From Halalkalibacter krulwichiae (GTDB lineage: Bacteria > Bacillota > Bacilli > Bacillales > Bacillaceae_D): 64,000 nucleotides of DNA. The notes beneath the pieces were generated by a model. It searched no databases. It was not told the DNA's origin and saw only the letters and a program-made list of their open reading frames with translations. Shown here in pieces: positions 14,113 through 16,858 of this stretch. Numbering within the stretch: position 1 is the first letter of the stretch; each line of letters starts with the position of its first letter. The stretch lies in NCBI RefSeq assembly GCF_002109385.1, contig NZ_CP020814.1, positions 1,180,001-1,244,000 of the forward strand, given 5' to 3'. A program made the translations under genes and the position numbers.

Positions 14113-14312
14113 CAAATAACAGAAAGATGTTAATCGTATTACGGGCATTACGAGATTTCACATAAATCATGTTTAGTAGGCCTGATAGTTACATAGCTTT
14201 GTGAGTAAATGTGGGAAAAGAGAGGAATAGGAGAGAGTTCTATCCCAGGTCTCATCTAAGTTATGAACAACATCAATAGAGAATCGGAAGGAAAAACGAG
14301 AAGAAAATATAA

Positions 14313-14341
14313 TTGACGAAATGAGAATCGTAGCTTATGAT
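14313..14341 (+). promoter_or_regulatory. SigA promoter of the riboswitch transcript
   Basis: TTGACG, a 17-base spacer and TATGAT end about 20 bases before the riboswitch core. Confidence 0.75.
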
Positions 14342-14360
14342 AAAGAAAATAAATTGAAAA

Positions 14361-14465
14361 TTCCCAAAGGGGAGTAGCTTTAACAGCAAAGTCGTCATTA
14401 CGGAGCATAGACCTCTCGGCTTTGTTGGCGGCGTATAGACGTTGTTAGCAAGACCTTTACACTAA
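14361..14465 (+). promoter_or_regulatory. yybP-ykoY manganese riboswitch
   Basis: The stretch AAAGGGGAGTAGC at 14366-14378, the segment GTCATTACGGAGCAT at about 14394-14407 and the closing GCAAGACCTTTAC at 14448-14460 match the conserved core of the yybP-ykoY class, which binds Mn2+ and usually raises expression of manganese exporters. A promoter precedes it and two terminator hairpins follow. Recognition is by sequence memory, not by a covariance search. Together with promoters and the WalR box it fills the 546-base gap 14014-14560. Confidence 0.85.
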
Positions 14466-14486
14466 TGGTAAAGGTCTTTATTTGTC
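14451..14486 (+). terminator. First riboswitch-linked hairpin
   Basis: AGACCTTTAC/GTAAAGGTCT (14451-14460 with 14468-14477) followed by a modest T-rich stretch. Its 5' arm is the 3' end of the riboswitch core, so ligand-stabilised folding would compete with it. Confidence 0.75.
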
Positions 14487-14494
14487 TTTTTTGT

Positions 14495-14527
14495 AACCTT
14501 TACCAAAGCAGTGGTAAAGGTTTTTTG
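14495..14527 (+). terminator. Second hairpin, strong terminator
   Basis: AACCTTTACC/GGTAAAGGTT (14495-14504 with 14513-14522) followed by TTTTG. Its arms can also pair with those of the first hairpin. Confidence 0.85.
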
Positions 14528-14560
14528 TTTTTAAAATGGTAATTAAGGGTGGGAAACAGG

Positions 14561-14830
14561 TTGAAATACGCAAAAAGGTTACTATTTATTCTAAAAGTAA
14601 AAAAGTTCCTTCCGTTTATGAAGGAATTCTTTCAATCATCAGAAGTGAAAAGATCAAAGAAGGTATTGGGAATTAGCTTTATATTAGCTTATCTTATTTT
14701 TCCATTTGATTTAATTCCTGATTATCTCGTATTTTTCGGAATTCTTGACGATCTCATGCTAGCTACATTTGTGTTAGAAAGAATGGTTTATCTAGCTCCA
14801 CCTTCATTAAAACAAAAATATCAACTGTAA
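14561..14830 (+). CDS. DUF1232 (YkvA-like) small membrane protein
   Basis: An 89-residue protein. I choose TTG 14561, 8 bases after AAGGGTGG; the alternative GTG 14549 lies inside that SD. The segment SFILAYLIFPFDLIPDYLVFF and the following GILDDLMLA are the DUF1232 signature: a membrane hairpin with the conserved SPIDLIPD-type motif (here FPFDLIPD). The basic N-terminus should be cytoplasmic. Family function is unknown. It is the first gene after the manganese riboswitch and its terminators, so its expression should respond to Mn2+. The kinase-like gene follows 47 bases later. Confidence 0.85.
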   Translation: MKYAKRLLFILKVKKFLPFMKEFFQSSEVKRSKKVLGISFILAYLIFPFDLIPDYLVFFGILDDLMLATFVLERMVYLAPPSLKQKYQL

Positions 14831-14877
14831 AGGTAAACAATATAAGAATTGACTGAATGCTAGAAAGGGTGAGGGAG

Positions 14878-15570
14878 ATGTCTTTTCTATTAGAAAATGT
14901 AGATGAAAAAATAAAACAAATACAGTTGTTTTCTCGCAACAATAATCAAATTGTGACAGTTAAAAAGGTACCAAAAGGAATAAAGTGTATAGGAATGGGG
15001 ACAGATGCTGCAGTGTTTCAATTACTTGATGCCCCTCAATTTGCATTTAAAGTCTTTAGTCAAGATAAACTCAAGAAATTGGAAAGGGAAAAACAGGTGT
15101 ATACGTTATTAGGTGATTCCAATTATTTTCCTTCTTATTATAGTAATGGAACAAATTATCTTGTTTTAAGTTTTGAAGAGGGGTTAACTTTATATGAATG
15201 TTTATTGAAAGGTGTGCGGATTCCCGAACAGGCAATTGTAGATGTTGAGAGGGCAAGAGAATTTGCAAGAAGTAAGGGCCTTAATCCGAGAGATATTCAT
15301 CTAAAGAACATTCTATTGCAGGGAGGAAGAGCTGTTGTGTTAGATGTCTCTGAATATTTGAACGAAGGAAATGATCATCGCTGGGAGTACTTAAAAGAGG
15401 GTTACTATGAATACTATACATTAATTGCTGAAAAGAAAGTTCCTTATTGGGTAATTGAAACAGTCAGGAAGTGGTATAACCAGTCACACCCAGGGCGATT
15501 CCAACTCCACTCTTTTGTTCAGAAGGTATTAAAAATAGTTCATATTGAATCAGAAGAAATGAAACGTTAG
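14878..15570 (+). CDS. Protein-kinase-like protein (YrzF-like)
   Basis: A 230-residue protein. ATG 14878 is preferred because AAAGGGTG lies 7 bases upstream; ATG 14857 has no SD. Kinase-like features in order are a glycine loop (GMGTDAAVFQL, about 41-51), FAFKVF with the ATP-binding Lys, a catalytic-loop equivalent PRDIHLKNILL (Asp and Asn kept), and VVLDVSEY where DFG would be. The lobe structure is short compared with classical Hanks kinases, as in Bacillus YrzF. Targets are unknown. It shares a transcript with the riboswitch-controlled DUF1232 gene and may therefore respond to manganese, the preferred metal of many kinases. Confidence 0.8.
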   Translation: MSFLLENVDEKIKQIQLFSRNNNQIVTVKKVPKGIKCIGMGTDAAVFQLLDAPQFAFKVFSQDKLKKLEREKQVYTLLGDSNYFPSYYSNGTNYLVLSFEEGLTLYECLLKGVRIPEQAIVDVERAREFARSKGLNPRDIHLKNILLQGGRAVVLDVSEYLNEGNDHRWEYLKEGYYEYYTLIAEKKVPYWVIETVRKWYNQSHPGRFQLHSFVQKVLKIVHIESEEMKR

Positions 15571-15624
15571 CAAATATTCTTTCGTTTTTATAATATAACG
15601 AAGCGTTGGAGGTGGGAGGAGAGC

Positions 15625-16092
15625 GTGATAGTTACATTGTTAATGCTTGTTATCTTTATAGTGTTTATATGTTTTGTGACGTTTGGTGTTAAGCAATCAA
15701 CCATTAAGTTAACTGAAGAGGAGCGCGAAGACATGGTGAAACAAGTTTATCAGTATGCAGTTGCTTTCATAACTTTGATTATGGTCATTGGGGGCGGAGT
15801 CTTTGCATTTATGTCACTAGCGGATTATGTATCCCCTAGTCCTTATTTGGAAACATTTGAAGAATTTAAGAGTATGAGGGAAATGAAAAGCGAAGAGCAA
15901 ATGAACGAAAATCAGCTAGATGAAGAACGTTTGCAAAGGCAATATGATGCTATGGTTGAACAGCAAATAGCTGGCAGCAAGCAAAGGGCTTTGAATAGTT
16001 TTATTAAAAGTTTAGGTTGGATTCTGATTCCTCTTCCGATATTTATCTTTTTCCAAAGAAAGATAAATCGGGATAGAAGAGATCGTATTTAG
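15625..16092 (+). CDS. Membrane protein of unknown function
   Basis: A 155-residue protein with a GTG start right after SD GGAGGAG. Three hydrophobic helices are seen: about 2-22, 47-68 and 132-148. The long charged stretch between the second and third (about 75-130, rich in Glu, Met and Gln) is probably coiled. The C-terminus is basic (RKINRDRRDRI). No family recognised. It lies 54 bases after the kinase-like gene; the gap holds a TATAAT inside an inverted repeat (TTCGTT/AACGAA), so it may also have its own promoter. Confidence 0.7.
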   Translation: MIVTLLMLVIFIVFICFVTFGVKQSTIKLTEEEREDMVKQVYQYAVAFITLIMVIGGGVFAFMSLADYVSPSPYLETFEEFKSMREMKSEEQMNENQLDEERLQRQYDAMVEQQIAGSKQRALNSFIKSLGWILIPLPIFIFFQRKINRDRRDRI

Positions 16093-16102
16093 TTTGAAAA
16101 TG

Positions 16103-16140
16103 ATCTGAAAAGGTCACTTAATGATAGGACCTTTTCAGAT
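16103..16140. terminator. Shared hairpin between convergent genes
   Basis: The 13-bp stem ATCTGAAAAGGTC/GACCTTTTCAGAT lies between the plus-strand membrane protein gene and minus-strand spo0M. On the minus strand it is followed by CATTTTC, so it may serve both directions. Confidence 0.7.
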
Positions 16141-16171
16141 GATCAAAAGAGAATTACAGATTGAGATTTTG

Positions 16172-16858
16172 TTAGATAGCTACAGGTAGTGTGAGTAGCT
16201 GTTCATCGATACTTAGATCCCTTTTGATTTCGTAATGTTTCAAATGATTATTCTCTTGGACATATAGATGAATATTTTGATCATTTCCGACAAAGTAAAC
16301 CTCTTTACCTTGATCATTGGTCAGATGAAATGCTTGTAAGCAATGAGTTGGATTGCTCTCTGTTGGGAGCTTATAACGACATTGGCCACTTTTGAAATTA
16401 TGATAATATCCACGTTCGATTAAATATTGATTAAGAAGATCGATTAGAGGGTCAATTACTTCAAAATCATGTGTTTCAACAGGATGATTAAAATAATTTA
16501 TATCAAGTTCTGTTTGAATATGAATCGTTTGTTCTTTAAATGTAACAGGTGTGTAGTACGGTAACGTAAAAGAAAAAGGAATTTTCTTTTCTTCGTTTGG
16601 TTGAATGACAAAAGGTTCGGTAATTTTAATTTCTAAGATTGGTTCTGTTACATCACGAAATTCCGTCATTTCATCATCAAAACGATGAAACTCTGTGTCA
16701 ACATGAATATAGATTTCAGAAATGGTTTGGGCTGCTTTTCCTCCAAACACATGAACCTCACCTTGAACTTCTTTGTTACGTTCAATCTTGTCTTGGAAAA
16801 GTACCGTATTCACTCTTGTAGATCCAATTCCAATAGAAGAGAAAAGTCTCTCAAACAT
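16172..16858 (-). CDS. spo0M: Sporulation-control protein Spo0M
   Basis: A 228-residue arrestin-fold protein that affects the timing of sporulation and cell division in Bacillus. ATG (MFERLFSSIGIGSTRVNTVL) has SD AAGGAGA; the longer frame upstream includes the SD itself. The N-terminal two-thirds is a beta-sandwich with family landmarks VQGEVHVFGGKAAQ and PFSFTLPYYTPVT. The C-terminal part (GQCRYKLPTESNP...) binds partners. No enzymatic residues are expected. Its presence supports a spore-forming host. Confidence 0.92.
   Translation of the reverse strand: MFERLFSSIGIGSTRVNTVLFQDKIERNKEVQGEVHVFGGKAAQTISEIYIHVDTEFHRFDDEMTEFRDVTEPILEIKITEPFVIQPNEEKKIPFSFTLPYYTPVTFKEQTIHIQTELDINYFNHPVETHDFEVIDPLIDLLNQYLIERGYYHNFKSGQCRYKLPTESNPTHCLQAFHLTNDQGKEVYFVGNDQNIHLYVQENNHLKHYEIKRDLSIDEQLLTLPVAI

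Follow-up and report, generated by a model that had tools for sequence, protein, structure and literature searches.

A yybP-ykoY class riboswitch ahead of a DUF1232 gene and a minimal kinase-like gene in Halalkalibacter krulwichiae: a probable manganese operon without TerC

In Halalkalibacter krulwichiae, a leader resembling the yybP-ykoY (Mn2+) riboswitches precedes two genes, neither of which encodes a known exporter. This raises the question of whether these genes take part in manganese handling. The locus lies on the plus strand of the window, that is, the whole stretch of 64,000 nucleotides analysed (contig NZ_CP020814.1, positions 1,180,001 to 1,244,000). An earlier note, made from the sequence alone, had described a promoter, a riboswitch core, two terminators, a DUF1232 gene and a kinase-like gene separated from it by 47 bases. 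All of these were found where it had placed them, and its statement that neither gene is a known exporter also holds. A motif scan, together with promoter frequency upstream of relatives, locates a sigma-70/A-type promoter at 14313..14341 (TTGACG-17-TATGAT). The aptamer follows at 14362..14458 and includes the switch helix P1.1 (14366-14370 with 14454-14458). Hairpin scans and folding identify terminator 1 (14450..14478) and terminator 2 (14495..14522). The DUF1232 protein of 89 aa is encoded at 14561..14830 (start TTG 14561, alternative GTG 14549). After a gap of 47 bases, the gene for a minimal protein-kinase-like protein of 230 aa extends over 14878..15570 (start ATG 14878, alternative ATG 14857). 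It is followed by ORF155 (155 aa, 15625..16092), which is kept after the kinase gene in relatives.

The class of the RNA was assessed with covariance models. Across the whole window no Rfam family reaches its gathering score, which is a curated threshold and not a biological feature. In a search of 291 bases run with an E-value threshold, the yybP-ykoY model RF00080 matches 14357-14509 with 22.4 bits (E 1.8e-4; gathering cut-off 45). This cut-off cannot decide membership because known positives also miss it: the E. coli mntP leader scores 41.6, and alx does not appear among the matches at E<=0.01; both are reported Mn-sensing riboswitches (PMC9603457). The RF00080 search that the earlier note had proposed for the leader thus returned a sub-threshold match and none at gathering score. 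Reading this score as a refutation was rejected, since the two E. coli leaders fail the same threshold. RF00080 of Rfam 15 therefore misses both E. coli Mn2+ riboswitches (L079, L080) at gathering score, and the class may be undercounted in annotation.

A second covariance model, R1, was built from related elements. Relatives were sought by blastn with 14340-14535 as the query, and 34 of 40 genomes were positive (the window's own counted). Three plasmid stretches were added and 6 duplicate loci dropped, which left 71 aligned elements, the window included in this training set and E. coli absent from it. R1 scores the window at 86.5 bits, the E. coli alx leader at 42.4 bits (E 7.6e-10) and the mntP leader at 21.3 bits (E 0.0014). 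At E<=1 there is one match in each 12-kb E. coli stretch (alx and mntP) and no other in either. The consensus structure of the 71 elements comprises 28 pairs, 16 of them with changes on both sides. Paired cells make up 96.8% in this alignment versus 89.3% when shuffled and 28-53% when slid. As judged by R1 and covariation, the aptamer core and helices are common to the experimentally shown members alx and mntP. On this sequence evidence the RNA at 14362-14458 is a genuine yybP-ykoY (Mn2+) riboswitch, as the earlier note had proposed, and a further example of an already known class. Among 81 genomes drawn from the order, R1 detects the class in 80. The genome of the window carries four elements at E<=0.01; the other three are found ahead of a DUF368-type gene and a CNNM gene, of another DUF368-type gene and of a Na/Ca exchanger gene. 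DUF368 thus occurs twice behind the riboswitch in this one genome.

The L3 loop of the window (UCAUUAC) resembles that of L. lactis (UCAAUUC); the X. oryzae loop is ACAUACU. The third base of the two published loops is the invariable Mn-binding adenosine (PMC6754395), numbered A41/A48 in the literature (PMC9190785, PMC6754395). Comparison with these loops designates A14397 as the predicted Mn-contacting adenosine. A shift of specificity to another divalent ion, which the unusual genes would then reflect, could be argued from a review which raises the possibility that certain variants of the yybP motif respond to other metals (PMC7266159) and from the many downstream genes that are not known manganese exporters. 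However, the A14397 column is invariant in all 71 elements and TerC is the commonest target, and we regard such a shift as very unlikely. TerC is present in 33 of the 71 operons of this first survey and in at least 52 of 104 elements of a second one. The latter covers the order and consists of 104 elements among the matches listed, 6 loci having been dropped as already used. A response to Mn2+ is therefore the reading that we infer for this aptamer.

Promoter-like sites are not above chance in the region scanned (4 found versus 7.4 expected). Among the relatives, a 10-of-12 promoter is found within 70 bases upstream of 44 of the 71 elements, compared with 2.9% of mononucleotide shuffles. Terminator-like hairpins number 3 on the two strands of the scanned region, versus 1.3 expected. 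Terminator 1 contains the 3' strand of P1.1 (14454-14458), which shares bases with the 5' arm of this hairpin. P1.1 likewise overlaps the terminator in the L. lactis yybP-ykoY element (PMC11087558), where Mn2+ is described as stabilising P1.1 so that termination is prevented (PMC9190785, introduction; PMC11087558). By analogy, Mn2+ should turn the operon ON: at high Mn2+ the aptamer would hold P1.1 and thereby sequester some bases in the 5' arm of terminator 1. The E. coli alx leader shares the aptamer core of the window, the CGTCATTACG loop included. Unlike in the window, its hairpin after the aptamer appears by eye to have no U-tract, and its gene is annotated as a Mn exporter.

The second terminator has the same arm sequence as the first. 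The 3' arm of terminator 1 (14466-14475) can form 10 pairs with the 5' arm of terminator 2 (14496-14505). In folding of a growing transcript with P1.1 imposed, this cross helix forms when the 3' end reaches 14506, and from 14522 onward the terminator 2 hairpin is predicted in its place. With P1.1 not imposed, terminator 1 is favoured at every 3' end. Because the terminator 2 hairpin outcompetes the cross helix once complete, any relief of terminator 2 would be kinetic only. The freed 3' arm of terminator 1 could pair with the nascent 5' arm of terminator 2, and one binding event could relieve both. A single aptamer might thus control the two terminators through this transient predicted pairing.

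The predicted dominance of the finished terminator 2 hairpin would equally suit two terminators that are independent and redundant, with similar arms arising from duplication. Folding predicts two hairpins after the aptamer in 68 of the 71 elements, and only 41 of these 68 have a cross helix of at least 8 pairs, which also speaks against linkage. We give the independent alternative somewhat less than an even chance, on two grounds taken from the relatives. The longest cross helix has a mean length of 7.9 pairs, compared with 5.4 for shuffled arms. With a stricter scan, both hairpins are U-tracted in 46 elements and the first alone in 9, while 16 of the 71 have no U-tailed first hairpin but carry a later one, a pattern that would fit a steering role of the first hairpin over the second. 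We lean towards linked control of the terminators as a possible model.

The PyrR attenuator model RF00515 also matches 14450-14529, below its threshold (25.9 of 54). This reading was rejected, as the match falls on the twin hairpins, which are best read as terminators. A leader reported in B. methanolicus as '(yybP-ykoY)(PyrR)-ykoY' (PMC4342826) similarly has a yybP-ykoY element followed by one read as PyrR. Known to us by description, it may correspond to twin hairpins of the type found in the window.

The operon can be compared with its relatives. The order riboswitch, DUF1232, TerC, kinase, ORF155 is found in Alkalihalobacillus deserti (L163), Halalkalibacter alkalisediminis (L164) and H. 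akibai (L165). ORF155 exhibits 61-65% identity to its counterparts in these three loci. It may belong to the same transcript as the kinase gene or be served by its own promoter, a promoter-like site being found by motif scan at 15567-15594. A Spo0M gene on the opposite strand comes after ORF155 in the window, L163 and L164. A LysM/3D gene adjoins the riboswitch in the window and lies farther upstream, past other sequence, in L164 and L165. A tblastn search of 14300-16200 at E<=10 detected no trace of TerC. The only TerC gene found in the genome lies elsewhere (at 3149581, 220 aa), and R1 gives no match within the surrounding stretch of 7 kb. As judged from gene order, the operon of the window is a TerC-less form of a conserved manganese operon, from which TerC would have been lost in this genome and kept in relatives. 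Published targets of the riboswitch include terC and two groups of predicted membrane proteins (PMC2211319), and current work gives the TerC proteins of B. subtilis a part in metalating exported enzymes (PMC10550928). B. subtilis ykoY (meeY) is described as a TerC gene behind a Mn-responsive riboswitch (PMC10550928). Compared with that description, the window has DUF1232 in first position, the kinase after it and no TerC.

The assignment of the first gene to DUF1232 was correct in the earlier note: its protein matches PF06803 with 36.7 bits, above the gathering cut-off of 23. How often this family follows the riboswitch, a survey that the note had suggested, was determined in 41 family genomes. 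These contain 15 DUF1232 relatives at E<=1e-6, and in 10 of these loci an R1 match precedes the gene on the same strand. TerC is the next gene in 9 of these 10 loci, the window being the sole exception. The five relatives without R1 showed no TerC match in the stretches fetched. DUF1232 was found behind 15 of the 71 elements of the first survey and behind 8 of the 104 elements of the order survey, among the matches listed. Among the first 71, 14 distinct DUF1232 genes were counted, 10 of which share a run with TerC. In one locus (L293, G059:C3:427025 and 427536) a DUF1232 gene lies between two elements that are on one strand and separated by about 500 bases. On these counts DUF1232 is, as far as gene neighbourhoods tell, a regular operon partner of TerC behind the yybP-ykoY riboswitch.

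This bears on the proposal of the earlier note that DUF1232 is a new manganese-handling membrane protein. Its position behind the riboswitch is confirmed. However, DUF1232 usually accompanies TerC and, therefore, position alone does not make it a new Mn transporter. The stronger version, in which DUF1232 itself binds or moves manganese and is more than a TerC helper, appears rather unlikely, though not negligible. Residues D50, D54, D63 and D64 are invariant in 19 of 19 sequences, which together with the position speaks for it. On the other hand, DUF1232 mostly stands alongside TerC instead of taking its place, a length of 89 aa would be short for a transporter, and the structure prediction is weak (pLDDT 69.9). 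In the literature search, DUF1232 and the riboswitch were joined nowhere, and within the text retrieved DUF1232 was named only in plant RING-finger papers.

The second protein has no Pfam match, PF00069 (Pkinase) included, and three of its relatives score 19.3, 22 and 26.4 against that profile, all under the curated cut-off of 31.7. Membership of the Pfam Pkinase family was set aside on these scores. The kinase-like nature proposed by the earlier note is nevertheless supported by a profile search in which the family alignment matches solved protein kinases in the PDB (E 4.7e-7). The AlphaFold model (pLDDT 92.5, pTM 0.87) has a kinase fold and matches kinase structures. Positions G39, G41, K58, E71, D139, N144 and D156 are invariant in 29 of 29 family members. 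We take these to be the Gly loop, the Lys, the Glu, the catalytic Asp, the Asn and the metal-binding Asp. Fold and catalytic residues are shared with PknB, archaeal RIO2 and the CurKC kinase domain, although the window protein is shorter than these and lacks a Pfam kinase match.

Linkage of this kinase to the riboswitch, defined as a riboswitch upstream on the same strand, is recurrent and its frequency depends on the sample. It amounts to 24 of 30 loci fetched from 31 family matches when the window protein is the query, to 13 of 30 loci fetched from 51 order matches with a remote relative as the query (flank of about 1.5 kb), and to 8 of the best 80 among at least 579 confirmed relatives in a GTDB scan (flank up to 4 kb). 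These three samples overlap partly and contain near relatives, the window being counted once in each of the first two. Starting from the RNA, the kinase is found behind 11 of the 71 elements of the first survey and behind 9 of the 104 in the order survey, among the matches listed; in 7 of the latter it is the first gene, one of them broken. A second kinase copy in the genome of the window (at 1361260) has no R1 match nearby. Behind the riboswitch, the kinase occurs with DUF1232 and TerC, alone, after DUF6376, or before EcsC (Robertmurraya L166, L167). The suggestion that it may act with DUF1232 gains support from the recurrent co-location of the two genes.

A tree of 91 kinases has one clade with 25 of 25 members riboswitch-linked, and 11 of 66 members are linked in the part that contains the window. 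The linkage label changes at least 5 times on well-supported branches of that part. A kinase always tied to the riboswitch was considered and dropped: 9 of the 25 clade rows had been picked via the riboswitch and the other 16 come from one family, while the protein-based order sample gave only 13 of 30. On two metagenome contigs (L172 and L183) the riboswitch is followed by an ORF of some 150 aa that matches no Pfam family, then by the kinase, TerC and an M48 peptidase. Their R1 scores are 30.2 and 25.9, respectively. In the tree, their kinases neighbour those of Desulfosporosinus and, therefore, wrong binning or transfer is possible. A claim of linkage in two phyla was accordingly lowered to these two contigs, L183 being labelled Desulfobulbaceae.

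With both genes described, the absence of TerC can be weighed. The DUF1232-kinase pair could be a remnant decaying after the loss of TerC and no longer serving manganese handling, the window being alone among the 10 riboswitch-DUF1232 loci of the family in having no TerC next to it. This seems improbable to us. Both frames are open, the kinase retains its catalytic residues, and the nearest relatives share 51-61% identity with the DUF1232 protein and 58-61% with the kinase; other genera, too, have the kinase behind the riboswitch with no TerC. We consider it likely, as an explanation for the locus as a whole, that a yybP-ykoY riboswitch senses Mn2+ and in response turns ON transcription of a TerC-less DUF1232-kinase operon. 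DUF1232 and the kinase would then be made as part of the manganese response, both with a presumed role in membrane manganese homeostasis.

The riboswitch acts as a ligand label, and whatever genes stand under its control probably belong to manganese handling. This flags both DUF1232 and the family of small kinases as candidates for a partnership with TerC. The window would represent a natural loss of TerC in which both partners remain, and in which a TerC-independent role can be addressed. Of greater interest is that the small kinase family recurs behind the riboswitch. Tentatively, Mn2+ riboswitches of Bacillales (and of the two metagenome contigs) may repeatedly control minimal kinases, often with TerC, DUF1232, EcsC or Spo0M, such that manganese excess would lead to phosphorylation of proteins at the membrane; we hold this as a possibility with the balance tilted against it. 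The literature search found no manganese phospho-signalling route, the target lists of the two founding ligand papers lying outside its scope. Riboswitch, protein kinase, manganese, TerC and operon were joined nowhere in it, and among the matches listed yybP-ykoY was joined with none of threonine kinase, DUF368, undecaprenyl, Spo0M and EcsC.

Other genes share this riboswitch. Spo0M is found with 14 of the 71 elements of the first survey and with 14 of the 104 of the order survey, among the matches listed. Genes of the undecaprenyl phosphate recycling type (DUF368 translocase-like, BacA, PAP2) are located behind it in several loci (L050, L355, L051, L052, L031, L066, L002 and L047). The sections of PMC9876793, on DUF368, that were retrieved mention neither riboswitch nor manganese. 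A second kinase family, matching PF00069 (122 bits for the L042 member), also occurs behind the riboswitch (L038, L042, L054, L301, L309 and L310), and in five of these six loci it comes after a gene for a small basic protein.
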